NCBI GenBank assembly: GCA_021792795.1
Contig: JAJYUB010000037.1
Coordinates: 1-32,559 of the forward strand
Direction: 5' to 3'
DNA length: 32,559 bases
Source of the DNA: Acidobacteriota bacterium
GTDB taxonomy: Bacteria; Acidobacteriota; Terriglobia; Terriglobales; Acidobacteriaceae
Shown here: positions 1,003 through 27,616 of the stretch, in pieces
Numbering within the stretch: the stretch's first letter is position 1
Layout of the letters: each line of letters starts with the position of its first letter
Notes under the pieces: generated by a model
What the model was told of the DNA's origin: nothing
What the model saw: the letters and a program-made list of their open reading frames with translations, nothing else
Databases searched by the model: none
Made by a program: the position numbers and the translations under genes

Positions 1003-2030
1003 TCAGCGCAAAGAAATGGACAACTCGGACTGGGCGATGCACCCGCGCAGTTTTATCTGCGAGTTTCGAATTCCGTCAATGGAGCCAAGGATGTCATCCA
1101 TCAATTCGTCCACATCCTTTGGGCAGCTGTTGGCCAGTTCGCGCTTGGCCAATGACCAGACGCCTTCATCTGGATTCAGTTGCGGCGCATAGGACGGAAA
1201 GTGCTCGATACGCAGACGGGGATGTTTTTCGAGGAATTGTTCGATAGGCTTTCCCTTGTGCGTCGATGAGTTGTCCAGCAATAGAATGACAGGCCCGCGC
1301 AGGAGGCGCAGCAGTTCGCGCAAATACATACAGACCTCCTCCTGCCCGATGTTGTCGTAAAAGAGCAGATAGTAGAGGCCGAGGCGATGTCGCCCGGGGC
1401 TGACGGAAATCCCGGAGATCACGGAGATCTTGTCGCGCTGTCCTTGGCGATGGCGGTGGATAGGAGTTTCCCCTTGTGGTGCCCAGGTTCTGACCACGTT
1501 GGGAATCATCAGGAAGCCCGATTCATCGGCAAAGACGATGCGGGCGCCCAACCTTGTGGCGTTTTTTTTATACGGGGCCACGCTTTTTGTTTCCAGCGCT
1601 CGATCTCTTCTTCGTTGCGCTCCAGAGCGCGTCGTTCCGGCTTCTGCGGAGTCCAACCGAGATCGTGCATCAACCGGCCAATGTGATCCGGGTGATAGCT
1701 CACGCCGAACTCGCTCTCGATCAACGCGGCGATGCGTGCAGTGGTCCACAGATTGGTGCGATAACCTTGCGCAAGCGGCCCCTTCAGTAGCAGGCGAACA
1801 AGTTTCTTTCGCCGAGTAGCGGCCAGCTTCAGTGGGCGTCCAGGAGAGAAACGGACCTGCAATGCCTCGTCTCCGCCCTGCCGTCGAGCATCGCGCCAGC
1901 GCATCACTGAACTCGCGTTACATCCGATCTGCCGTCCGACTTCGTTGAGCGAGCAGCCTTCATCCAACAACGCCAAAGCGCGACGGCGACGGTCTTCCAA
2001 AAGCTCGGCACTTGCCTTCAGCCTGGGCAT
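1003..2030 (-). CDS. IS630-family transposase, made by -1 frameshift
   Basis: The upstream frame starts best at ATG 2030 (MPRLKASAELL) and carries helix-turn-helix domains (GCSLNEVGRQIGCNASSVMRW, and a second around TTARIAALIESEFGVSY). The downstream frame carries the DDE catalytic domain: FADESGF, LLLDNSSTHKG and LNPDEGVW, giving D, D and E. The frames overlap at a T8 run near 1562-1569, which is A8 on the coding strand. A -1 slip on A-AAA-AAA would join WPRIKK to NATRLGARIVFADE and give one protein of roughly 340 residues. Split transposases joined by slippage are known in IS630 elements. The stop is at 1003, just inside the left inverted repeat. Without slippage only a DNA-binding product ending near 1509 would be made, which could act as an inhibitor. 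Confidence 0.85.
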
Positions 2031-2056
2031 GGTGACTCCGAACCTCTGCAAGTATT

Positions 2057-2074
2057 ATTGCATTATTTATGCAG
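2057..2074 (-). repeat. IS630 element inverted repeat, right
   Basis: Exact reverse complement of 982-999. It lies 26 bp upstream of the transposase start at 2030, so the element's own promoter must lie in or just inside this end. Confidence 0.9.
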
Positions 2075-2077
2075 TAG

Positions 2078-2180
2078 TCAATAAGTTCTTCAACCGCTGA
2101 TACTTCAGCACGCGGATGTCCTCCAGGTTGTAACTCTGTTTGACGAAGCGGAAAGTTTCCTCAATTTTCCATCCATACTC
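2078..2180 (-). pseudogene. IS4-like transposase remnant (proximal part)
   Basis: The minus-strand frame reads EYGWKIEETFRFVKQSYNLE followed by DIRVLKYQRLKNLL and then meets the IS630 right end. The KIEETFRFVKQ motif with a following LEDIRVL is a hallmark of the C-terminal part of IS4-type transposases. The frame is closed upstream by a TAA at about 2187-2189, which is the end of a different transposase fragment, so everything before this segment has been lost. Together with 733-981 it makes one broken gene. Confidence 0.65.
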
Positions 2181-2186
2181 AGCGTC

Positions 2187-2300
2187 TTAAATAAGTGCGC
2201 ATAGTCTGCGCAAGGTAATGTTGCCGCGAAGCCACTGTTTGAATTGCCCTTCGATGCTCTCGATGACTTCATCCAGCTTCGGGAAGTACCGGTTATGCAC
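2187..2300 (-). pseudogene. Second IS630-family transposase, C-terminal stub
   Basis: The last 35 or so codons before the TAA at 2187 read HNRYFPKLDEVIESIEGQ, then FKQWLRGNITLRRLCALI. This is the usual C-terminus of a different branch of IS630 transposases (HNRxFPTLD...FxQWRxGNxTLRRLCAII). It is not related closely to the intact copy at 1003-2030. Sequence further upstream in this frame (2301-2474) is antisense to the IS1-like gene and is not transposase. The break at about 2300 coincides with the start of recognisable IS1-like sequence on the other strand, marking a recombination or insertion junction. Confidence 0.6.
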
Positions 2301-3021
2301 GCATTTCCATGATGCCCACGTCCGCAATCTCCGCGTTCGCCGCTTGCAGGCTGACGAAATTTGGAGCTTTGTCGGGGCCAAAGCAAAGAACGTCTCCAAA
2401 GAAAAAGAACAGGACGGCTGGGGTGATGTCTGGACGTGGACGGCGATCGATGCGGATACGAAGCTCTGCGTCACTTATTACGTGGGAGATCGGGGCAAAC
2501 TATCCGCATGGAATTTCATGCGCGATGCGGCAAAGCGCATTGTCGGAAAGCCGCAGATCACAACGGACGCGCACAAGCCGTACCTCAGCGCAGTGGAAGC
2601 GGCGTTTGGCGGGGATGCCGATTACGCGATGCTCCACAAGATTTACGGTCACAGCGGAGAACCGGAAACCCGCTACAGTCCCAGAACCTGCATCGGCTGC
2701 GACATGAAAACCATCAGCGGCGTACCCGATCCCAAGCACGTCAGCACCTCTTTTGTGGAGCGCCAGAATTTGAACATGAGAATGAGGCGGTTTACCAGAC
2801 TGACCAACGCTTTCAGCAAGAAAGTCGAGAATCATGGTCACGCCATCGCACTCTATTTCGCGTATTACAATTTCTGTCGCGTCCATCAAACGCTTCGCGT
2901 CACACCGGCAATGGAAGCTGGATTGACCGATCATGTTTGGAGCATGGAAGAATTGGCTATGCTGATGCCGGAGCCGAAAGCGGCAAAACGCGGACCTTAC
3001 AAGAAAAGAATTTCAAACTGA
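2297..3021 (+). pseudogene. IS1-like transposase, 5'-truncated
   Basis: The frame from about 2297 to the TGA at 3019-3021 encodes the catalytic part of an IS1-like DDE transposase: HVRNLRVRRLQADEIWSFVG (first D), TTDAHKPYL (second D), then TSFVERQNLNMRMRRFTRLT (E) and a C-terminal FCRVHQTLRVTPAM segment. The family's N-terminal zinc-ribbon and helix-turn-helix region, about 70-90 residues, is missing. The open frame continues back to an ATG at 2218, but those codons are antisense to the IS630 stub and are not part of the protein. The catalytic triad is intact, so truncation is likely fairly recent. Sequence just after the stop (TGACCCACTACCC) may be the element's right end; I found no matching left end. 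Confidence 0.75.
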
Positions 3022-18762: not shown

Positions 18763-19785
18763 ATGATGAAAACTTCCCGTTCCTTTCTTTTCACGCTTGC
18801 GGTGTTTCTAGCTTTTTTCGTTTGTACGGCGGTCGCGCAGCAGCCAGTCACGCCCGCGGTTGCAGTGTCCCAAGGACCAGCGGGTCAACAGAAGGCCCAG
18901 AGGCCCTTCGAACTCCATGCACTGACGCCAGAATTCTGGGAGGTGTTCGACAAGAACGCGAAGCTTGAGACGATGGGGACCGGCTTCGGTTTTACCGAGG
19001 GCCCGGTGTGGGACCCTGCCGGATTCCTGTGGGTGAGTGACGAGTCGAAGAACTGGATCGACAAGCTCTATGAGGACGGCCGTGTCGAGAACATGGTTTC
19101 GCTGGTGGACCCCGACGGCAGCACCTATGACCGGGAGCATCGCCTGTTGAGTACCGCGAGCGGGTTGCGCGCGATCATTCGGCTCTCAGCAGACGGCAAG
19201 AGCTTTGAGACGGTCGTCGACCACTACCAGGGCAAAAAACTGAACACGCCCAATGACATCGTCATCGGCCCGGATGGCGCGATCTATTTCACCGACCCGA
19301 CCATCGACATGACGCACGATCAGCAACAGGAACTGCCTCCGTCCGTCTACCGCATCGGGGCCGACAATCGCATCTCACTGTTGACCGCGGACCTGAAGGC
19401 GCCGAACGGTCTGGCATTCTCGCCGAATGGAAAGTACCTCTACATCGACGACGACGACGCGCGGAACATCCGGCGCTACAAGTTCCACAAGGATGGAACG
19501 ATCTCCGATGGGATGGATTTTGGCGACATGCATGACGCTGTGCATCGCGGCGTTCCGGACGGAATGAAAGTCGACAAGAAGGGACGCTTGTTTGTCTCGG
19601 GCCCGAACGGCATCTGGGTATGGAATAGCCAGGGGGTACACATCGGCACGGTGCAGATGCCACAGGGCATGGCCAACCTGACATGGGGCGGACCGGATGA
19701 CTCCAAGCTATACATCACTGCCGGCGATACTGTTTATGTCCTGCAGGCAAAGACGCGCGGGATTCTGGGCCATCCAAAGAAATAG
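18763..19785 (+). CDS. Exported SMP-30/gluconolactonase-family protein
   Basis: A 340-residue six-bladed beta-propeller of the SMP-30/gluconolactonase/LRE family, whose members are metal-dependent hydrolases of sugar lactones. A Sec signal peptide (SFLFTLAVFLAFFVCTAVAQ, about residues 7-26) precedes it. Expected metal and substrate motifs are present: FTEGPVWDP (Glu79), LNTPNDIVIGPDG (Asn164), LKAPNGLAFSPNGKYLY (Asn215), and a later VPDGMKVDKKGRLF with the conserved Asp. The frame is open back to 18589 but those codons lack family similarity; ATG 18763 gives a clean signal peptide. It converges on the PQQ dehydrogenase gene (36 bp between stops). With a dehydrogenase that makes lactones, a lactonase would be its natural partner. 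Confidence 0.88.
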   Translation: MMKTSRSFLFTLAVFLAFFVCTAVAQQPVTPAVAVSQGPAGQQKAQRPFELHALTPEFWEVFDKNAKLETMGTGFGFTEGPVWDPAGFLWVSDESKNWIDKLYEDGRVENMVSLVDPDGSTYDREHRLLSTASGLRAIIRLSADGKSFETVVDHYQGKKLNTPNDIVIGPDGAIYFTDPTIDMTHDQQQELPPSVYRIGADNRISLLTADLKAPNGLAFSPNGKYLYIDDDDARNIRRYKFHKDGTISDGMDFGDMHDAVHRGVPDGMKVDKKGRLFVSGPNGIWVWNSQGVHIGTVQMPQGMANLTWGGPDDSKLYITAGDTVYVLQAKTRGILGHPKK

Positions 19786-19821: not shown

Positions 19822-21528
19822 CTATGGCAACGCGAAGGCAAACACGTCGTCTCCAGCCGCCACGGCAAAGTACTGCTTGCCCTCAATGCCGTAGGACATG
19901 GGGGAGGCATGCATGGGCTGCCCGAGCTTGAATGCCCAGAGCGGCTTGCCGGTACGGGCATCATCCATTTCGAATTCGTTGGCGTCATTGCCGAAGGCCA
20001 CCAGACCGCCCGCCGTCGTCATCACACCGGCCCAGGCCTGACGTTCGCCGACCTGCTTGTCGCGCCAGGCAAAGTCAAGCTTGGTCAGGTCGAAGGCGTT
20101 GATGTATCCGTCGCTTGGAACATTGCCTGGCGGTGTTCGCGCGCCGGTTGAATAATACGGACGCCCTTGCTGAAACGGTCCGTTCTTCGCCTGAATTACG
20201 TCACACGCTTCCAATGAGCGGAAGTAGAACATGTTTGCAAGCGGATCGTAGCTGGGGGAATACCAGTTGGTCGCACCCTCGATGCCGGGGCAAACCAGAA
20301 CGCCCTTTGCGTTGGGAATGAGGTTGTTGGAGATGGGCCGCCCGTTCTTGTCGATGCCCTTGGCCCAGTTCATCCGTTTCATAAACTGTTTTGAGTAGAG
20401 ATACTCTCCCGTCGCGCGATCCAGGATGTAGAGAAAGCCATTGCGGTTTGCCGTCACGATGAGTTTGCGCGGCTTGTTCTTGAACTTTGCATCCACCAGT
20501 ACCGGCGTCTGCACAGAGTCATAGTCGTAGAGATCGTGCGGATTGAACTGGAAATACCATTTCATCTTCCCAGTGTCCGGGTCCAGCGCCACCAGAGAGC
20601 TGGTATAGAGGTTGTCGCCGGGCCGCACGCTGCCGTCGAAATCCGGCGCGGCATTGCCCGTGCCCCAGTAGATCGTGTTGAGTTCAGGATCGTAGGTGCC
20701 CGGCATCCACGCGGTCCCGCCGCCGCGCAAAAAATCCTCGCCGACGGGCCAGGTTTCCGATCCTTTCTCTCCTGGAGCGGGAATCGTCCAGAAGCGCCAC
20801 ACCTCTTTGCCTGTCTGCGCATCGAAGGCGGCCACAAAGCCGCGCACGCCGTCGTCGCCGCCGGAGGTGCCGACCAGTACTTTGTCTTTCACAATCAGGG
20901 GGGCACTCGTCGCGCCGTAGCTCTGGGTATTGTCCGCATAGGCCACATCCCAGATCAGGTTGCCCGAGCGTGCATCCAGGCACAGCAGGTGGGCATTGTC
21001 CGTCTCCATATAGACACGCGTCCCCAGCACCGCAACGCCGCGGTTGATATGGCCGGAGGCATCGTCAATCAATCCCGGCGAAACGCCGCGCGCATGGCGC
21101 CACAGCAGCGTACCCGTCCTCGCATCCAGGGCATAGGCGTCGTTGGAGCCGGTGATGAACATTACCCCGGCCACCACCACCGGCGTTACCTGCAGCACGC
21201 CCGCATTCTGTGTGTGGAAGACCCACTTTGCCGCCAGGTGGCGGACGTTTGCCGGCGTAACCTGGGCCAGGCTGCTGAAGCGCCGTCCGGTGTAGTCGCC
21301 GTTGTACGACACCCAGTTGTTTTTGATGGTCTTCTGCAACAGATCGCTCGGCTGCACATCGATCAGGCCCAACTGGGTTCCATGTCTCGACTCGTGTCCC
21401 GAGCCCTTCACTGCGGCGAGTGCCTTCGTCGCCGGCTTGGCTGCCGACCGCCCCTGCGCGGCGACGGTTGCGATCGCCAGCGCGCCTGTCGCGGCAAGCC
21501 CAACCATGCTCCTGCGGAATCTCGTCAT
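19822..21528 (-). CDS. PQQ-dependent alcohol/sugar dehydrogenase, exported
   Basis: A 568-residue eight-bladed quinoprotein with a signal peptide (MVGLAATGALAIATVAAQG). Tryptophan-docking repeats are plain (LDARTGTLLWRH, LDARSGNLIWDV, FDAQTGKEVWRFW, LDPDTGKMKWYF). The cofactor pocket shows SGGDDGVRG, YWGTGNAAPDFDGS (metal-binding Asn) and NPHDLYDYD, where DYD offers the catalytic Asp plus the extra Asp found in lanthanide-type XoxF enzymes. The adjacent Cys-Cys ring of methanol dehydrogenases is absent (SGHINRG instead), and the usual metal Glu is an Asp. ATG 21528 is preferred (GGAAGGGA seven nt upstream) over an in-frame GTG at 21534. It follows the cytochrome gene by 39 bp, its likely electron acceptor. 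The substrate is unknown. Confidence 0.88.
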   Translation of the reverse strand: MTRFRRSMVGLAATGALAIATVAAQGRSAAKPATKALAAVKGSGHESRHGTQLGLIDVQPSDLLQKTIKNNWVSYNGDYTGRRFSSLAQVTPANVRHLAAKWVFHTQNAGVLQVTPVVVAGVMFITGSNDAYALDARTGTLLWRHARGVSPGLIDDASGHINRGVAVLGTRVYMETDNAHLLCLDARSGNLIWDVAYADNTQSYGATSAPLIVKDKVLVGTSGGDDGVRGFVAAFDAQTGKEVWRFWTIPAPGEKGSETWPVGEDFLRGGGTAWMPGTYDPELNTIYWGTGNAAPDFDGSVRPGDNLYTSSLVALDPDTGKMKWYFQFNPHDLYDYDSVQTPVLVDAKFKNKPRKLIVTANRNGFLYILDRATGEYLYSKQFMKRMNWAKGIDKNGRPISNNLIPNAKGVLVCPGIEGATNWYSPSYDPLANMFYFRSLEACDVIQAKNGPFQQGRPYYSTGARTPPGNVPSDGYINAFDLTKLDFAWRDKQVGERQAWAGVMTTAGGLVAFGNDANEFEMDDARTGKPLWAFKLGQPMHASPMSYGIEGKQYFAVAAGDDVFAFALP

Positions 21529-21567
21529 CGTCACGTCCCTTCCGTCGTGTCGGAATGTCGCCTGGCG

Positions 21568-22404
21568 CTAATTCCGATGGCGCCGTCTGGGCCTTGCGGG
21601 CGTCGGCTCGCTTGGGGCATGCCTGCCGGTGACGATCAGGAAGGCCACGAGGTCGTCCAGTTCGCCGGACGTCAACCGGGCCCCATAATCGCGCGGCATC
21701 AGAGAGTGGTGGGTGTAGGTCACCTTCACCAGGTTGCTCCTCGACAGAAAGCGATACCGCCCGTCCTCCGTCTGCAGCGTGATGTTGAGGTTGTCTTCCG
21801 CGCGCACCACGCCGGTCAGGCTCTGTCCAGCCCTGGTCCGCACCTCTGCCACGCGCGATGTCGGTTCGAGATTCGCATCCGGGTTCACCATCGCCTGCAG
21901 AACTTCCTCCGCCGTCCGGTTCCTTGCATAGGAGGTCAGCTCCGCCGCCATAAAGCCGCCTTTGCCGCCGACCATGTGGCAGATGGAGCACTGCCCCTTG
22001 CCGAAGAAAAGTTGCCGACCAGCATTTGGGTCTCCCGTCAGCTTTGCCGAAGGCGCAACCTCGGTCGCTCCCTGTAGCGTGCGTAAATACTGCACCACCG
22101 CCTGTGTTCCCCGATCGCCGAGATCGGGAAACCCAGGCATACCCTGGTCTGCCTCGCCATTCTGCACGATGCCCATCAGGTCCCGGTTCGAGAGCGCGAT
22201 CGCTTTCGGTAGCGTCGCAATCGACGGGCCCCGCCCGCCCCTGCCATCCGCACCGTGGCAGTACGCGCAGTCCGATGCATACATCTGCGCTCCCTGTCCC
22301 GGATTGGGGCCGCTTCTCTGCGCGTCCTGTCCGAATACGGACATCCCTCCAAACAACAATACGGAGGAGTAAACCAACATCGCTGTAAGCCGGGTACGTG
22401 TCAT
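21568..22404 (-). CDS. Diheme cytochrome c, PQQ-dehydrogenase partner
   Basis: A 278-residue exported c-type cytochrome. After a signal peptide (about residues 6-25, ending near VFGQ) come two class I heme sites: CAYCH (46-50) followed by GPSIATLP and GMPGFPDL (axial Met), and CSICH (139-143) with a late SLMPRDYG (axial Met). The C-terminal part between the second heme site and that Met carries a beta-rich TGVVRAEDNLNITLQTEDGRYRFLSR insertion often seen in cytochromes of quinoprotein and membrane-bound dehydrogenase clusters. Start is ATG 22404, preceded by GAGAGA nine nt away. It should carry electrons from the PQQ enzyme to the respiratory chain. The Arg-rich C-terminus (RPRRRHRN) may aid binding to acidic partners. 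Confidence 0.9.
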   Translation of the reverse strand: MTRTRLTAMLVYSSVLLFGGMSVFGQDAQRSGPNPGQGAQMYASDCAYCHGADGRGGRGPSIATLPKAIALSNRDLMGIVQNGEADQGMPGFPDLGDRGTQAVVQYLRTLQGATEVAPSAKLTGDPNAGRQLFFGKGQCSICHMVGGKGGFMAAELTSYARNRTAEEVLQAMVNPDANLEPTSRVAEVRTRAGQSLTGVVRAEDNLNITLQTEDGRYRFLSRSNLVKVTYTHHSLMPRDYGARLTSGELDDLVAFLIVTGRHAPSEPTPARPRRRHRN

Positions 22405-22479: not shown

Positions 22480-23868
22480 CTACCTGGCATTCGCCCCATC
22501 GCGTGGAGGAGGTGGATTCACGGGAACTTCGCCCAGCGGCCCGCGATCGAGACCATGAGAATCCACCAGATGCACTGAGACCCGGGCGGTGTTTGGCGGC
22601 GCGTTTATGGTGGTCTGCAAGTGTACAGGCTCGGTGGGAATGACAGGCATCAGCTTCGCGGCGCTTCCACCGCCTCTTCCGTACAAGTGAACAACCAGAT
22701 CGCCGGCATAAAACACACCAAAGCTGCCGGAAAGTACCAGGCCGGCGGGGGTCGCGGTCGCGGTCAGCGGGGTCCCGATCACACCGCTGTAGGTCGTCGT
22801 TTTGAAGTCCTCTCCCATGCGCGTCGGATACCACTGCGTGTCCATCGCGTAGGTTTCGCCGGGCGCCAACTCGACCATCGGGCTGTTCATCTCCGCCTCC
22901 ACGAACGGCCCTTCGCGGGGTCCCGCGTTCTGTCCGGTCGCCGGGGAGGGTGTTGGTTCACCGGACGAATAGAAGATGATCGACGCCTTTCCGGGATACA
23001 CCGCAGTGGGATCGACATGGTGGCGCTCCACCATGGTGTATCCGGTCGAACCATCCACCGCCGCCAGCCATCCCGATTGAGAGTCGATCCATACTTCTTG
23101 CATGATGTCGTTCCAATGCACGCGCAACGTGCCATCCTTCGCGCTAAAAGCCGGGTTGTCCGCCGGGCCAGTGCGCACATGATAGCCCTTCAAATACGCG
23201 CTTGAAGGAGCCAGTGCTGTCACTCCCCAGAACTTGGTGTTGAAATGGTCCGAACCGGCGGGATGGGACGTAGGGTACTCGGTGATCGTCTGCTCCGACC
23301 AGGTCCGCGGGTAGCCACTCATGTTCTGCATCACCACGTGAAACGAGATCACAGGCGTGTCCGCGCCGATGCTGATGTCGCGGATATATCGCTGACCGAT
23401 CTCCGGATCGACCGGCCCGGTCAAACGCACTGCGCACGTGGGTCCGCTGGAAAGCACCTGCAGCGTAAAAGGTGCGTCATCCAGGTTGCCGCCGCCAGAC
23501 CAATGCTGCTCATCCTGATTGCCCTCCGGCAGCGGCCAGATCTTATCGCCGCCGTAGTTGCGATCGCCGTACCCTTTGCTTTCCAGCGGAACCACCTGCC
23601 CTTGCAGCAAGGGATTGATGTACAGGAAGTCATGTCCGCCGAAGGTGACCTGAATCAGCCGCCCACCGATCTGCGGAACAATCTCCAGCGTCACCCATGG
23701 ATTGGACATCTCCTCGGCCTTCCATCCCAGGTAGTTTGTTGCCTGCACCTGGCAGCCGGGCGCGGAGGTCGTCTGGCACTGCAACGGCAAACCCAGCAGG
23801 GCCGACAGCGCAATCGCAGAAAACAACGTTGGAAACCGTGCTTTGGTTCTGACAGAAGCGAACTGCAC
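22480..23868 (-). CDS. Exported DUF4380 protein (sugar-mutarotase-like fold)
   Basis: A 462-residue protein with a signal peptide (about residues 12-32, SAIALSALLGLPLQCQ). The opening NPWVTLEIVPQIGGRLIQVTFGGHDFLYINP is characteristic of DUF4380, a beta-sandwich group related to galactose mutarotase and carbohydrate-active folds. Further conserved stretches are KIWPLPEGNQDEQHW, TGPVDPEIGQRYIRDISIG, TWSEQTITEYPTSH and HVDPTAVYPGKASIIFYSSG. No catalytic role is established for the family to my knowledge; binding or processing of a sugar is a guess from the fold. GTG at 23868 follows the RidA stop (23878) by nine bp with GGAGAGA between, so the two are translationally close. A Pro-rich tail ends the protein. 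Confidence 0.8.
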   Translation of the reverse strand: MQFASVRTKARFPTLFSAIALSALLGLPLQCQTTSAPGCQVQATNYLGWKAEEMSNPWVTLEIVPQIGGRLIQVTFGGHDFLYINPLLQGQVVPLESKGYGDRNYGGDKIWPLPEGNQDEQHWSGGGNLDDAPFTLQVLSSGPTCAVRLTGPVDPEIGQRYIRDISIGADTPVISFHVVMQNMSGYPRTWSEQTITEYPTSHPAGSDHFNTKFWGVTALAPSSAYLKGYHVRTGPADNPAFSAKDGTLRVHWNDIMQEVWIDSQSGWLAAVDGSTGYTMVERHHVDPTAVYPGKASIIFYSSGEPTPSPATGQNAGPREGPFVEAEMNSPMVELAPGETYAMDTQWYPTRMGEDFKTTTYSGVIGTPLTATATPAGLVLSGSFGVFYAGDLVVHLYGRGGGSAAKLMPVIPTEPVHLQTTINAPPNTARVSVHLVDSHGLDRGPLGEVPVNPPPPRDGANAR

Positions 23869-23877
23869 ACTCTCTCC

Positions 23878-25116
23878 TCAGCGAAGCGTCTGTCGCACTG
23901 CGATAAAAGAAATTTGCTCGACATCTTCCGACTTCATATCGAAATTCTGTTGCAACGTAGTACGCGCGGGAAAATTGTCTTTAAAAAACGTGCCGTAGAG
24001 AGACACGACCGGGTCCTCGTCTTTCATGTCACGCAGATACACAGTCGAAGAGACGACATTCGAGAAATCCATGTCCGCCTTCTGCAACCCATCCAGCAGG
24101 CTGCGCATCGACATCCGCACCTGAATGCCCAGCTCCGGCGAAAACAGGCCCAGGGATGGGACATACGCGTCCTTGGCCGAGAGATACAGGGTATCTCCGT
24201 AGAGGATGCCGGGGCTTGCGGTTGGACTGGGCCCCTCATTTCTGGGGCGAATCGACATGCGTTTGGACAGATCGGCGCCGGCAATGCAACTGAACACGAT
24301 ATGGGCGTGGTTCGGAAGGTCCACCACCTGAATTGTCCCTCGCCCAGGGGTGTTCCCAAACTCAAAATATGTTGCGTAGATCTTGTTCATCACACGTTGT
24401 GGACCGCCATGGCTGCTGAGATAGGGATTGACCCAGATGACATTCGCCATGCTCATGTTGGCAGCCTTGGCAACCGCAGCGACGTTATCGAGGGCCTGCT
24501 TGACTTCTCCGGCATCATCGGCGGCCAGCTTTCCCGTCAGCGGATCGACGCCTCCCTGCGCCGATATGTAGAGAACATCGTCGGCTTCGATTCCCGCCGG
24601 ATCGATGTGTCGTCCCTGCGGCCACCCCTGCGGATGGATCACGCGTCGGCGGGCAGCACTGCTCACAGCGATGCAGTTGATTTCGATATTCTCTCCGTTC
24701 GGCAGACTCGCTACTCCGAGCACGGTGCGGGCAGGCGGGTCCGCTCCGATCATCTTCCAGTAGACCTTGTTCATCCCTTCCATATTCGACAGATGGGTCA
24801 GATAGATGTTCATCCACACCACATTGCCAAAATCCATTCCTGCCGCGCGCAGCACGCCTTGCACATTGCCCAACGACTGGCGCGCCTCCTGTTGGAAATC
24901 CTTTGGGACCTCGCCGCTACTGTTGCGTCCATCCTGGCCGCCAACGTAGAGCGTTCGATTGACGAGAATACCGGCACTCGATGCCGAACCAAGGCGATTG
25001 CCGGCTACCTGAACGACCTTGATCGCGCCGCCGGCCTGCGCAAGCAGTGGCGCGCACCATGCAGCCAGCAGAAGACACAAGACAAAATAAGGGCAGCGTC
25101 TTAACGGATCGCGCAT
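23878..25116 (-). CDS. Exported triple-RidA (YjgF) domain fusion
   Basis: RidA proteins hydrolyse reactive enamine/imine intermediates released by PLP enzymes to 2-keto acids and ammonia. This 412-residue protein has a signal peptide (about 9-27, PYFVLCLLLAAWCAPLLAQ) and three consecutive RidA domains at about 40-152, 160-280 and 290-410. Each keeps the family's active-site arginine just before the last strands: PARTVLG (Arg130), GRGTIQV (Arg259) and ARTTLQQ (Arg385). Single-domain RidA proteins normally act as cytosolic trimers, so this looks like a covalent, exported trimer. ATG is preceded by AGGGAGGACAA. It lies in the same series as a Tat-exported PLP enzyme, which would be its imine source. 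Confidence 0.88.
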   Translation of the reverse strand: MRDPLRRCPYFVLCLLLAAWCAPLLAQAGGAIKVVQVAGNRLGSASSAGILVNRTLYVGGQDGRNSSGEVPKDFQQEARQSLGNVQGVLRAAGMDFGNVVWMNIYLTHLSNMEGMNKVYWKMIGADPPARTVLGVASLPNGENIEINCIAVSSAARRRVIHPQGWPQGRHIDPAGIEADDVLYISAQGGVDPLTGKLAADDAGEVKQALDNVAAVAKAANMSMANVIWVNPYLSSHGGPQRVMNKIYATYFEFGNTPGRGTIQVVDLPNHAHIVFSCIAGADLSKRMSIRPRNEGPSPTASPGILYGDTLYLSAKDAYVPSLGLFSPELGIQVRMSMRSLLDGLQKADMDFSNVVSSTVYLRDMKDEDPVVSLYGTFFKDNFPARTTLQQNFDMKSEDVEQISFIAVRQTLR

Positions 25117-25212: not shown

Positions 25213-26109
25213 TTAGTGGCGTGCGCCTTTTTGTTGCATGCCCGGATACCAGGAGCGCACGCAGAGTAGCCGCGATGTGACGTCGGGCGCGCTGTAGTAG
25301 CCCACCGTAGCATTGAGCCGGAAAAAATAAGCATCCCCGGCTTTGGCAGGGTGTCGCCCTGCGATTCCGTCCATTCCTCCGCCAGCCACGATGACGCCGT
25401 GGCCACTCAATATCAGGTAGATCTCCTCTTCACGCTGGTGATGGTGAGGAAAGTTCGTGCCGCCGGGCGCTATCTCCATCAGGAAGAGGCTGGTCAGTAC
25501 GCGGCCTGCCGCAATGCGGTCACGCTTGCTGTCGACATCTCCCATGAGCAGACGGAAGCGGGTCGAACTTGGGTGGCCATTCACCAGCGTCGTTGGCACA
25601 TCTTCAATGTTGGCTTTCAAGGGGTGCGATGGCGGTTGAGACTTGTCAAATCCTTTGGTGTAAAAACCCATGACGACCACGGTCAGCGGCGCTCCGGATG
25701 TATTCGTTAAAGCATGCGGAACCGTCGACGGGAGATAGAGATAGTCCTCGGTCTTCAGGGGTATGTCCTCGTTTCCGTATTTCGCGGAGCCACTGCCGTC
25801 GAGAACGACGTACACCTGGTCTTCCTGGGGATATTGAACCGTGGCGCAAGCGCCATGGGGATCGATGACTGCCTCCCCATATCGAGCTACGCCAACCACC
25901 ACGGACGTATCCGGATCTCCCTGGCCGAACAGAGGTTTGTAACGACACGTCGCCGTGGTGATGTCCGACGGTCTCTCCGCAGCGGTCAGGGTGTTGCGAT
26001 ACAGGTAGGTGGGATCGATCCGGCGATGGTCTGCATGCAGAGGAAGAGCACAAGCGGTACCTGCCAGCAGAGCGATGAATGCGGCTGCGTGCCGTTGACT
26101 GGGATGCAT
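25213..26109 (-). CDS. Exported bicupin protein
   Basis: A 298-residue protein with a signal peptide (FIALLAGTACALPLHA, about residues 11-26) and two cupin barrels. Barrel one (about 55-150) has the QEDQVYVVLDGSGSAKYGN strand and LPSTVPHALTNTSG. Barrel two (about 185-290) has a strong metal site, NFPHHHQREEEIYLILSGHG (His222-224 and Glu229), and the matching later segment. The first barrel lacks the His-rich site, so only the second is likely to bind metal. Cupins of this type include sugar isomerases, dioxygenases and binding proteins; the substrate is not evident. ATG 26109 has GAGAGGTGG just upstream. The longer frame to 26370 is antisense to the downstream end of the PLP gene and is rejected. 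Confidence 0.85.
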   Translation of the reverse strand: MHPSQRHAAAFIALLAGTACALPLHADHRRIDPTYLYRNTLTAAERPSDITTATCRYKPLFGQGDPDTSVVVGVARYGEAVIDPHGACATVQYPQEDQVYVVLDGSGSAKYGNEDIPLKTEDYLYLPSTVPHALTNTSGAPLTVVVMGFYTKGFDKSQPPSHPLKANIEDVPTTLVNGHPSSTRFRLLMGDVDSKRDRIAAGRVLTSLFLMEIAPGGTNFPHHHQREEEIYLILSGHGVIVAGGGMDGIAGRHPAKAGDAYFFRLNATVGYYSAPDVTSRLLCVRSWYPGMQQKGARH

Positions 26110-26317: not shown

Positions 26318-27616
26318 TCACGCAGATTGTTTGCGCGCCTTGTTGAGGACCTGGCGGAGGCGGTTGCCAACGATCAGGTCCTCACCGGGTTGCAGAGTCA
26401 TGGAAATAATTTGCAAGGGATTCGGGTGGGACCTCCGCCGCTTGTTTGAATCATGCTTGATGCGTGCCAGGACCCCGCTGGGATTGCTGTCCGTCAGCAC
26501 CTCAATGCGAGGGTCGCCGTCGTGCAACTGCTGGGCGCATTGGGCCACCGTCAAACCAAACTTCGCTTCGTCCCACATTACCGACAATGTTGGATAACTG
26601 TTCCCGTCTTGCGGGGTCATGATGTTCGTCGTCACTCCGGGCACAGTGTCCACCAGCTTCTGGATGCGTTCGACTCGGCCCTGCCACTCTCTGTTTAAAT
26701 CTCCGAGGTCCGCACGCGACCAATACTCGATCGCCGCCAGGATGCCCATGATCTCTTCCTTGCCGACCTTCATGGGACGGCATACGGCGCCTTCCCAGGG
26801 ATTGGTGTTGTACAGGGCCGCATCGATCAGGTCCTTGCGGCCCAATAACACTCCGGAACATTGCGGGCCAGACAGTCCCTTTCCGCCGCTGAAGCAAAAA
26901 AGGTCGACGCCAAGCTTGGCATAGCGCGTGAAGTAAGAAAATGGGGGTATACCGGCCGCGTCGTCGACCAAGAGGGGAACACCGGCGGGTTTGGTGACCT
27001 TGAGGACGCGCTCAAGCCGGTCGTCACGCCAGGTGGTGTAGACCATGGCGGTTTGCGGAGTGATGGCCGACGGCAGGTCTTCCACTGTTTCGGCGATCAC
27101 CAGTTTGCCTCCGGCAAGGCGGATGGCGCTGTCGAATGGACTCCGGCCTTCCATCATCACGACTTCACTTTTCAAGCCGGTCGTGTCGGGCAATTGCCAG
27201 ATGTTTTTTGGGTCCGACCCGGCGATGCAGGCCGCTGTTGCCGAAGCCATCGCGCCGGCCGAGCCGGAAGTGACCATTCCGGATTCAGCTCCAGACAGCT
27301 TCGCGAGATAGCGGCCAACTCCGGCTTGCAGTTCAAACATGTCGACAAAATAGTGCGACGCCTCCTCGGTCGCTCGCCGTGTCTCTGGCAGTTCCAGTGA
27401 ACCGCACACATAGGTCCAGGTGCCACGCGCGTTAATTAAAGGGCGAACGCCCAAGCGAGTGTAAATATTGTTGGAGAAGGTCCGCCTGCCAGGGGAGGCC
27501 ACAGTAGCGGCCAGGCTACGGGTGCCAATCGTGGCAAACAGAGGGGCTGCTGCCAGCAGTTTGATAAACGACCTTCGGTCATTCAAATGAGGTTGAATCT
27601 CATCCACCGGTAACAT
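26318..27616 (-). CDS. SelA-like PLP enzyme with Tat signal
   Basis: A 432-residue fold-type I PLP enzyme of the SelA/D-glucosaminate-6-phosphate ammonia-lyase-like group. Evidence: INARGTWTYVCGS near the N-terminus, the GSAGAMASATAA segment, PLLVDDAAG (cofactor Asp), and FCFSGGKGLSGPQCSGVLLG, whose lysine (246) should form the aldimine. A twin-arginine signal begins at residue 14 (DRRSFIKLLAAAPLFATIG), so the folded enzyme with cofactor is probably exported. Relatives such as DgaE eliminate ammonia from amino-sugar acids. Start ATG 27616 has AGGAG five nt upstream. It heads the minus-strand series (208 bp to the cupin gene) and is divergent from the giant receptor gene. True selenocysteine synthesis is unlikely because no selB or SelC-like gene is present. 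Confidence 0.82.
   Translation of the reverse strand: MLPVDEIQPHLNDRRSFIKLLAAAPLFATIGTRSLAATVASPGRRTFSNNIYTRLGVRPLINARGTWTYVCGSLELPETRRATEEASHYFVDMFELQAGVGRYLAKLSGAESGMVTSGSAGAMASATAACIAGSDPKNIWQLPDTTGLKSEVVMMEGRSPFDSAIRLAGGKLVIAETVEDLPSAITPQTAMVYTTWRDDRLERVLKVTKPAGVPLLVDDAAGIPPFSYFTRYAKLGVDLFCFSGGKGLSGPQCSGVLLGRKDLIDAALYNTNPWEGAVCRPMKVGKEEIMGILAAIEYWSRADLGDLNREWQGRVERIQKLVDTVPGVTTNIMTPQDGNSYPTLSVMWDEAKFGLTVAQCAQQLHDGDPRIEVLTDSNPSGVLARIKHDSNKRRRSHPNPLQIISMTLQPGEDLIVGNRLRQVLNKARKQSA

Follow-up and report, generated by a model that had tools for sequence, protein, structure and literature searches.

The window, here the whole stretch of 32,559 nucleotides that was analyzed, carries a run of minus-strand genes transcribed in the order lyase, cupin, triple Rid, DUF4380-like protein, cytochrome c and quinoprotein dehydrogenase, on which a gluconolactonase-like gene of the plus strand converges. 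The features of this region are:

26318 to 27616, minus strand: DgaE/SelA-like PLP enzyme with a Tat-like motif (NDRRSFIKLL) and the PLP lysine retained (SGGKGLSGPQ); TIGR01437 at E 1.7e-44, below the curated cut-off; PDB matches 8t7j and 7lc0.
25213 to 26109, minus strand: cupin protein with an export-like N-terminus, PF07883 in two stretches, between the lyase and RidA genes; start taken from the relative L012.
23878 to 25116, minus strand: gene for a putatively exported triple-RidA protein of 412 amino acids, reading from 25116 to 23878, coordinates including the stop codon.
25036 to 25116, minus strand: signal-peptide-like N-terminus of the triple RidA (residues 1-27), of Sec-like hydrophobicity, twin arginine present; cleavage near LLAQ is an estimate.
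24658 to 24996, minus strand: RidA domain 1 (residues 41-153), retaining Arg130, the Asn and Glu145.
24268 to 24645, minus strand: RidA domain 2 (residues 158-283), retaining Arg259 and the Asn, with Val at the Glu position.
23881 to 24264, minus strand: RidA domain 3 (residues 285-412), retaining Arg385, with Gln at the Glu position and Val at the Asn position.
22480 to 23868, minus strand: DUF4380-like protein (PF14315, E 1.5e-6, below cut-off), beginning 9 bp after the RidA gene.
21568 to 22404, minus strand: c-type cytochrome with two CxxCH motifs.
19822 to 21534, minus strand: quinoprotein dehydrogenase (TIGR03075 over cut-off; TIGR04528, "acido-empty-quinoprotein", below cut-off).
18763 to 19785, plus strand: SMP-30/gluconolactonase-like protein with an export-like N-terminus (PF08450, E 2.5e-41); start set by eye.

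A Shine-Dalgarno-like AGGGAGG lies upstream of the triple-RidA open reading frame, and a scan for promoters and terminators gave a result near chance level. Transposase-like open reading frames were recognized by eye at 1003-3021.

Searches with the triple-RidA protein recovered the Pfam domain PF01042 in three stretches (E 1.1e-50; 171.1 bits against a cut-off of 27.3), the same three being recovered singly in a genome-wide search, and TIGR00004 matched the whole protein at 187.2 bits (cut-off 106.25). The 4.04 Mb genome of origin holds eight PF01042 stretches, namely the three in this gene and five elsewhere. The initial annotation had described one protein with three successive RidA domains, each with its key arginine; the domains are borne out by these matches, and the arginines at residues 130, 259 and 385 all align with Arg105 of TdcF. 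The closest named relatives of the protein come from Acidobacteriota MAGs: full-length copies are present in three other MAG contigs, with best segments 86, 78 and 75% identical, and a fragment that is 89% identical and bears an in-frame stop lies at the end of contig L015. Triple Rids of the window type are also found in two single-contig genomes, G125 and G325, and this recurrence, together with the copies in other MAG contigs, indicates that the gene is not a product of chance or misassembly. The triple-Rid proteins of G125 and G062 are 41 and 34% identical to the window protein, and no further homologs were detected in the viral contigs scanned. Comparison with three relatives gave dN/dS values of 0.07-0.20 for domain 1, 0.12-0.13 for domain 2 and 0.11-0.15 for domain 3; the protein is under purifying selection in every domain, with all values falling between 0.07 and 0.20.

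The complete same-strand set, from lyase to quinoprotein, is retained in L012. The quinoprotein and cytochrome genes also occur in the same orientation in L015. The gluconolactonase-like gene is present in L015 and, in part, in L012. On the 13 kb of L014 the lyase is accompanied by a pair of triple-Rid genes in tandem (L014:7333-9605, with a short assembly gap of Ns in the first) and by the DUF4380-like gene, and nothing related to the cupin, the cytochrome or the quinoprotein was found there. The gluconolactonase-like gene and the other extras of the cluster hint at a possible bearing on sugar-acid chemistry.

The N-terminus of the triple-RidA protein, FVLCLLLAAWCAPLL, has a mean hydropathy of 2.51. 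The signal peptide assigned in the initial annotation thus stands insofar as hydropathy makes this segment signal-peptide-like; export itself we infer from it. The best 15-residue hydropathy is 2.07-2.69 in nine triples, against 1.13-2.07 in 15 single Rids. A pair of arginines is present in six of the nine window-type triples, and a twin-arginine motif in all 15 single Rids (above 60 bits) encoded near DgaE-like lyases. Of 72 DgaE-like proteins, at least 55 have a twin arginine ahead of a hydrophobic segment, this count being a lower bound, as some motifs visible by reading fell outside the scripted cut. By the definition used in PMC5539426, the h-regions of OmpA and DsbA score 2.31 and 2.49, and strongly hydrophobic signals are reported there to be able to use Tat. 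Judging from N-terminal hydropathy and motifs, the triples are likely to be Sec-exported and the single Rids Tat-exported. PLP enzymes exported through Tat are known, as exemplified by PvdN and PtaA of pseudomonads (PMC6206403). The likeness to these lies in export of a folded, PLP-loaded enzyme; they differ in acting on pyoverdine side chains, and the available sections of that article mention no Rid partner.

To what extent triple Rids and DgaE-like lyases are linked across genomes can be seen from both directions. A profile built from six triples (A1; E 1e-50) recovered six loci in four of 396 genomes of the phylum, that of the window included. At all eight window-type loci with enough flanking sequence (the window, L012, L014, one in G062 and two each in G125 and G325) a DgaE-like gene lies on the same strand as the triple Rid, either adjacent or one gene apart, with the cupin intervening in the window and L012; L013 and L015, which are too short to judge, stand outside this count. 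Since the window, L012 and L014 are close relatives and G125 and G325 belong to the same genus, the eight loci represent about four independent lineages.

Starting from the lyase, TIGR01437 at E 1e-20 detected DgaE-like genes in 39 of 297 genomes, none scoring over the curated cut-off. Lyase loci were read in 30 of these 39, the other nine having weak matches only (E 8e-25 to 9e-21). A same-strand Rid gene scoring above 60 bits lies within 2 kb of 25 of the 68 DgaE-like genes, across 16 genomes, compared to 0.35 expected by random placement given the Rid counts and genome sizes; the genomes are related, so that the corresponding P is nominal and too small. This tally omits G325 and the named MAG contigs, which were added for carrying a triple, as well as Rids that scored no higher than 60 bits. 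No Rid was found within 2 kb of the remaining 43 lyase genes, some of which have flanks of only 1.5 kb. In eight genomes (G036, G061, G155, G195, G233, G241, G249 and G281) a single Rid is sandwiched between two lyase genes, and in the genome of the window the DgaE-like gene of the cluster is the only one found. Scanning of some neighbors at five single-Rid lyase loci showed an RraA-like aldolase family gene in three, an amidohydrolase/deacetylase gene (over cut-off) in two and one MFS carrier, whose best model, below cut-off, is a D-galactonate transporter; these neighbors are as expected for the breakdown of sugar acids or hydroxy amino acids. Two cases fall outside the above counts: in G261 the lyase has another Tat-motif Rid at a distance of about 1.2 kb, and in G291 a putatively exported triple whose middle domain is degenerate lies some 5 kb away from a DgaE-like gene of the opposite strand. 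The genome of the window also encodes a single Tat-motif Rid of the lyase-associated type with no adjacent lyase (L006, at C9:3071-3391).

The window lyase scores 152.3 bits with TIGR01437 (cut-off 385.3) and matches PDB 7lc0 at E 1.5e-28, in keeping with membership in the same PLP superfamily as DgaE/DGL. The PLP lysine is present in 72 of 72 aligned DgaE-like rows; a His is found at DGL column 163 in none of the 72 and at column 162 in three, and the window enzyme has neither. The substrate of DGL is PTS-phosphorylated, and the enzyme possesses His162 and His163, unlike the lyases described here, which are mostly Tat-like and never have His163; in DGL, His-163 protonates the enamine, and the H163A mutant is still active and releases an enamine rather than an imine, the authors connecting such free enamines with RidA (PMC9529869). 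Given this release by H163A, the absence of His-163 offers a chemical reason for a Rid partner. Loss of His-163 as a mark of specifically Rid-paired lyases was considered and rejected, since the residue is missing with or without a Rid nearby.

We favor, with a probability of roughly 0.6, the reading that the triple-RidA protein is an exported single-chain Rid, probably using the Sec route, that works with the DgaE-like lyase encoded two genes upstream, a neighbor on which the initial annotation is silent. The lyase, with its Tat-like motif, would remove the 3-hydroxyl of a 2-amino-3-hydroxy acid, possibly an amino-sugar acid such as glucosaminate, and free an enamine/imine, which the Rid protein would hydrolyze outside the cytoplasm to a 2-oxo-3-deoxy acid and ammonia. 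Probably, the three domains would assemble as a pseudo-trimer resembling RidA; its one fully canonical cleft would be that formed via the domain 1 glutamate, the other two being eroded or specialized. Observed here are the domains, the arginines, the Sec- and Tat-like N-termini, the conserved linkage to the lyase gene and purifying selection; trimer closure, export and its route, catalysis and the substrate we infer. No exported Rid with a PLP partner is described among the matches listed from the open-licence literature, and we consider two things to be new, namely the pairing of a lyase and a Rid that both look exported, and the asymmetry of the clefts. The ong cluster for oxidized chitin monomers also combines a deacylase and a PLP deaminase with an essential RidA, OngD, in the breakdown of GlcN1A, but is cytoplasmic and uses a fold-type III PLP enzyme and a single 127-residue RidA (PMC9537276).

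A wider, tentative proposal, to which we would give somewhat less than even odds, is that Acidobacteriota possess an extracytoplasmic deamination module, in which Tat-exported lyases devoid of an internal proton donor would free enamines and exported Rids would be the obligatory second enzyme. The Rid would have been captured in two forms, namely as single Rids using Tat, which could be exported as an assembled trimer, and as triples using Sec, in which a single chain could form the trimer after unfolded translocation. If this holds, the fusion would be an adaptation to the export route. Rid proteins have been studied mainly as agents of intracellular damage control; a lyase and a Rid exported together would be a case of imine chemistry, and of its control, beyond the cytoplasm, and would offer a direct test of Rid as a dedicated pathway enzyme.

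A Rid census of 30 genomes brought up further triple Rids, which constitute a second putatively exported family. A profile of five of its members (A5; E 1e-50) has matches in 26 of 297 genomes, against three of 297 for the window protein (E 1e-40), making the second family the commoner; the 26 include the genome of the window, through its window-type gene only, and a few of the matches span about two thirds of the profile. In the 21 triples read, one of which (L113) came from the census rather than from A5, the Arg is present in 19, 20 and 18 of domains 1, 2 and 3, and the Glu in 19, 21 and 21, respectively. Of the 63 domains, all have Gly31 and 61 have Glu120, and in 20 of the 21 proteins a 15-residue stretch with a hydropathy of at least 1.95 lies ahead of domain 1. 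Neighboring genes scanned include those for an amidase and for UPF0047 proteins, and no DgaE-like gene was found in the flanks read (about 5 kb per side at six loci, about 2.5 kb at L101 and at most 1.5 kb at the others). Hence, export and triplication do not require this lyase partner, and the notion that every exported triple Rid adjoins DgaE was rejected. The second-family loci (L101-L107 and L121-L133, e.g. L102:5355-6551) are spread over many Acidobacteriota genomes and have mostly intact clefts. The triple Rid at L113:531-1805 has an export-like N-terminus and a Ser at the catalytic Arg position in each domain (PAS motif).

From the account in PMC1884159, each RidA cleft would need an Arg face and a Glu face contributed by neighboring units, and any side chain in place of Gly31 would clash with Glu120. 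All 27 domains of the nine homologous triples, the window protein among them, have the Arg105 equivalent. The Glu, by contrast, is found in nine of nine first domains, three of nine second domains and none of the seven third domains that align there (two do not align). At the positions of Tyr17, Ser30, Asn88, Cys107 and Glu120, the window protein has S, G, N, V, E in domain 1, D, S, N, T, V in domain 2 and A, S, V, T, Q in domain 3, a partial set in each. The four window-group proteins all carry Val in domain 2 and Gln in domain 3 where Glu120 would be, and Ala replaces Gly31 in every third domain and in three of four second domains. By this comparison, a canonical cleft is predicted to be possible at just one of the three in the window protein. 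In the cleft comparison proposed in the initial annotation, the three must differ, with the Glu in domain 1 only, the Gly31 position occupied by G, A, A and the Asn88 position by N, N, V in domains 1, 2 and 3. Loss of the cleft residues other than Arg from all three domains, which the same annotation had seen as counting against it, is not observed, as domain 1 retains the Asn and the Glu.

That annotation further held three different specificities to be possible, and here its claim survives in part: the clefts do differ, but one good cleft with two eroded ones fits the data equally well or better. We regard it as unlikely, if still the best of the alternatives, that a different imine is handled at each interface by a broad-specificity exported protein. 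In its favor, all three arginines are retained (27 of 27 domains) and dN/dS is equally low across the three domains. Moreover, replacement of the equivalents of Tyr17 and Glu120 by Ala is reported to have little effect on Salmonella RidA (PMC4433059), so the two Glu-less clefts need not be dead. However, set against the mostly intact second family, the changes at Glu120 and Gly31 in domains 2 and 3 look like relaxation at two clefts.

Two AlphaFold runs, both with the same five closely related sequences, reached a mean pLDDT of 47.4 and 43.9, too low to judge trimer closure. The first of these models, which at such pLDDT supports little, matched RidA chains over domain 1 (Z at most 8.9) and also the chorismatases 5a3k and 4bps. 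Goat RidA and one of two salmon RidAs have the N-terminus of a subunit paired with the C-terminus of its neighbor (PMC7311433); linkers that are short would thus be compatible with a ring that closes. A pseudo-trimer is a plausible reading and has already been proposed for the 3x-RidA class. A natural single-chain RidA would allow clefts to be mutated one by one, which is impossible in a homotrimer.

A less likely alternative still is that the Rid works for the cluster's own quinoprotein dehydrogenase and cytochrome c, hydrolyzing imines that arise from oxidation of amines or amino alcohols. The genes for both follow the Rid gene in the same orientation, also in L012 and L015, the lyase/Rid pair of G261 has a quinoprotein-like gene close by (L110), with a weaker match (4.5e-18) on the G175 stretch L072, and clustering of Rid genes with those for amine oxidases is on record (PMC4433059). 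Nevertheless, a phmmer search at E 1e-6 found no relative of the quinoprotein or cytochrome on L014 or at the five distant triple-Rid loci read (L016, L056, L057, L058 and L059), all of which have the DgaE-like gene, and the best full-length match of the quinoprotein over cut-off is to an alcohol dehydrogenase family. The quinoprotein itself (19822-21534) is of the "acido-empty-quinoprotein" type, below the cut-off of that model, in a genome with no PqqE over cut-off; PqqE matches there are below cut-off only, as in control genomes. The gene in G261 (L110:6381-8000) is of the glucose/quinate type, its best model, a glucose-type one, being below cut-off, and lies a few kb from the DgaE-like gene and the Tat-motif Rid; the L110 and L072 quinoproteins hint at a possible link of lyase-Rid chemistry to sugar oxidation. 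Least probable of all is an exported, non-catalytic RidA fold such as a stress-induced chaperone or ligand-binding protein, which could draw on the other activities of some family members (e.g. YabJ, a chlorination-induced ribonuclease; PMC6435465), but sits poorly with the catalytic Arg in all domains and the linkage to a PLP enzyme.

The triple RidA as such was rejected as a novel class: the 3x-RidA type, likewise a single chain of three RidA domains in tandem, has been in print since 2015, when Niehaus et al. named it and proposed a covalent trimer (EF_0115 of Enterococcus faecalis; PMC4433059). With the RidA homotrimers (E. coli TdcF, human hp14.5 and goat UK114) the window protein shares the domain family and the catalytic Arg, and in domain 1 also the Asn and Glu; it differs in its putative export signal and in being fused and asymmetric. 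These homotrimers are single-domain proteins and are not known to be exported. The E. faecalis plasmid homolog WP_002367615.1, which we take to be of the EF_0115 type, has no signal peptide recognizable by eye, unlike the window triple.

To understand the provenance of the exported triples we examined two domain trees, the second of which comprised 72 rows, with L103, L106, L113, L127, L128, L131, L132, L133, L012, L013 and most Tat single Rids dropped; L111, with two domain matches only, was in neither. The three domains of the E. faecalis protein form a clade of their own (100/100) beside canonical RidA in both trees, and this 3x-RidA is most simply a separate fusion, a pattern that concerted evolution could mimic. 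Third domains of the window type form one clade (92/88, then 98/90), but first and second domains each do not; in the second family every domain position is a single clade (97/87, 100/94 and 96/82). The simplest reading of these trees is that the exported triples are old fusions that arose independently of the E. faecalis version, unless the latter has been homogenized.
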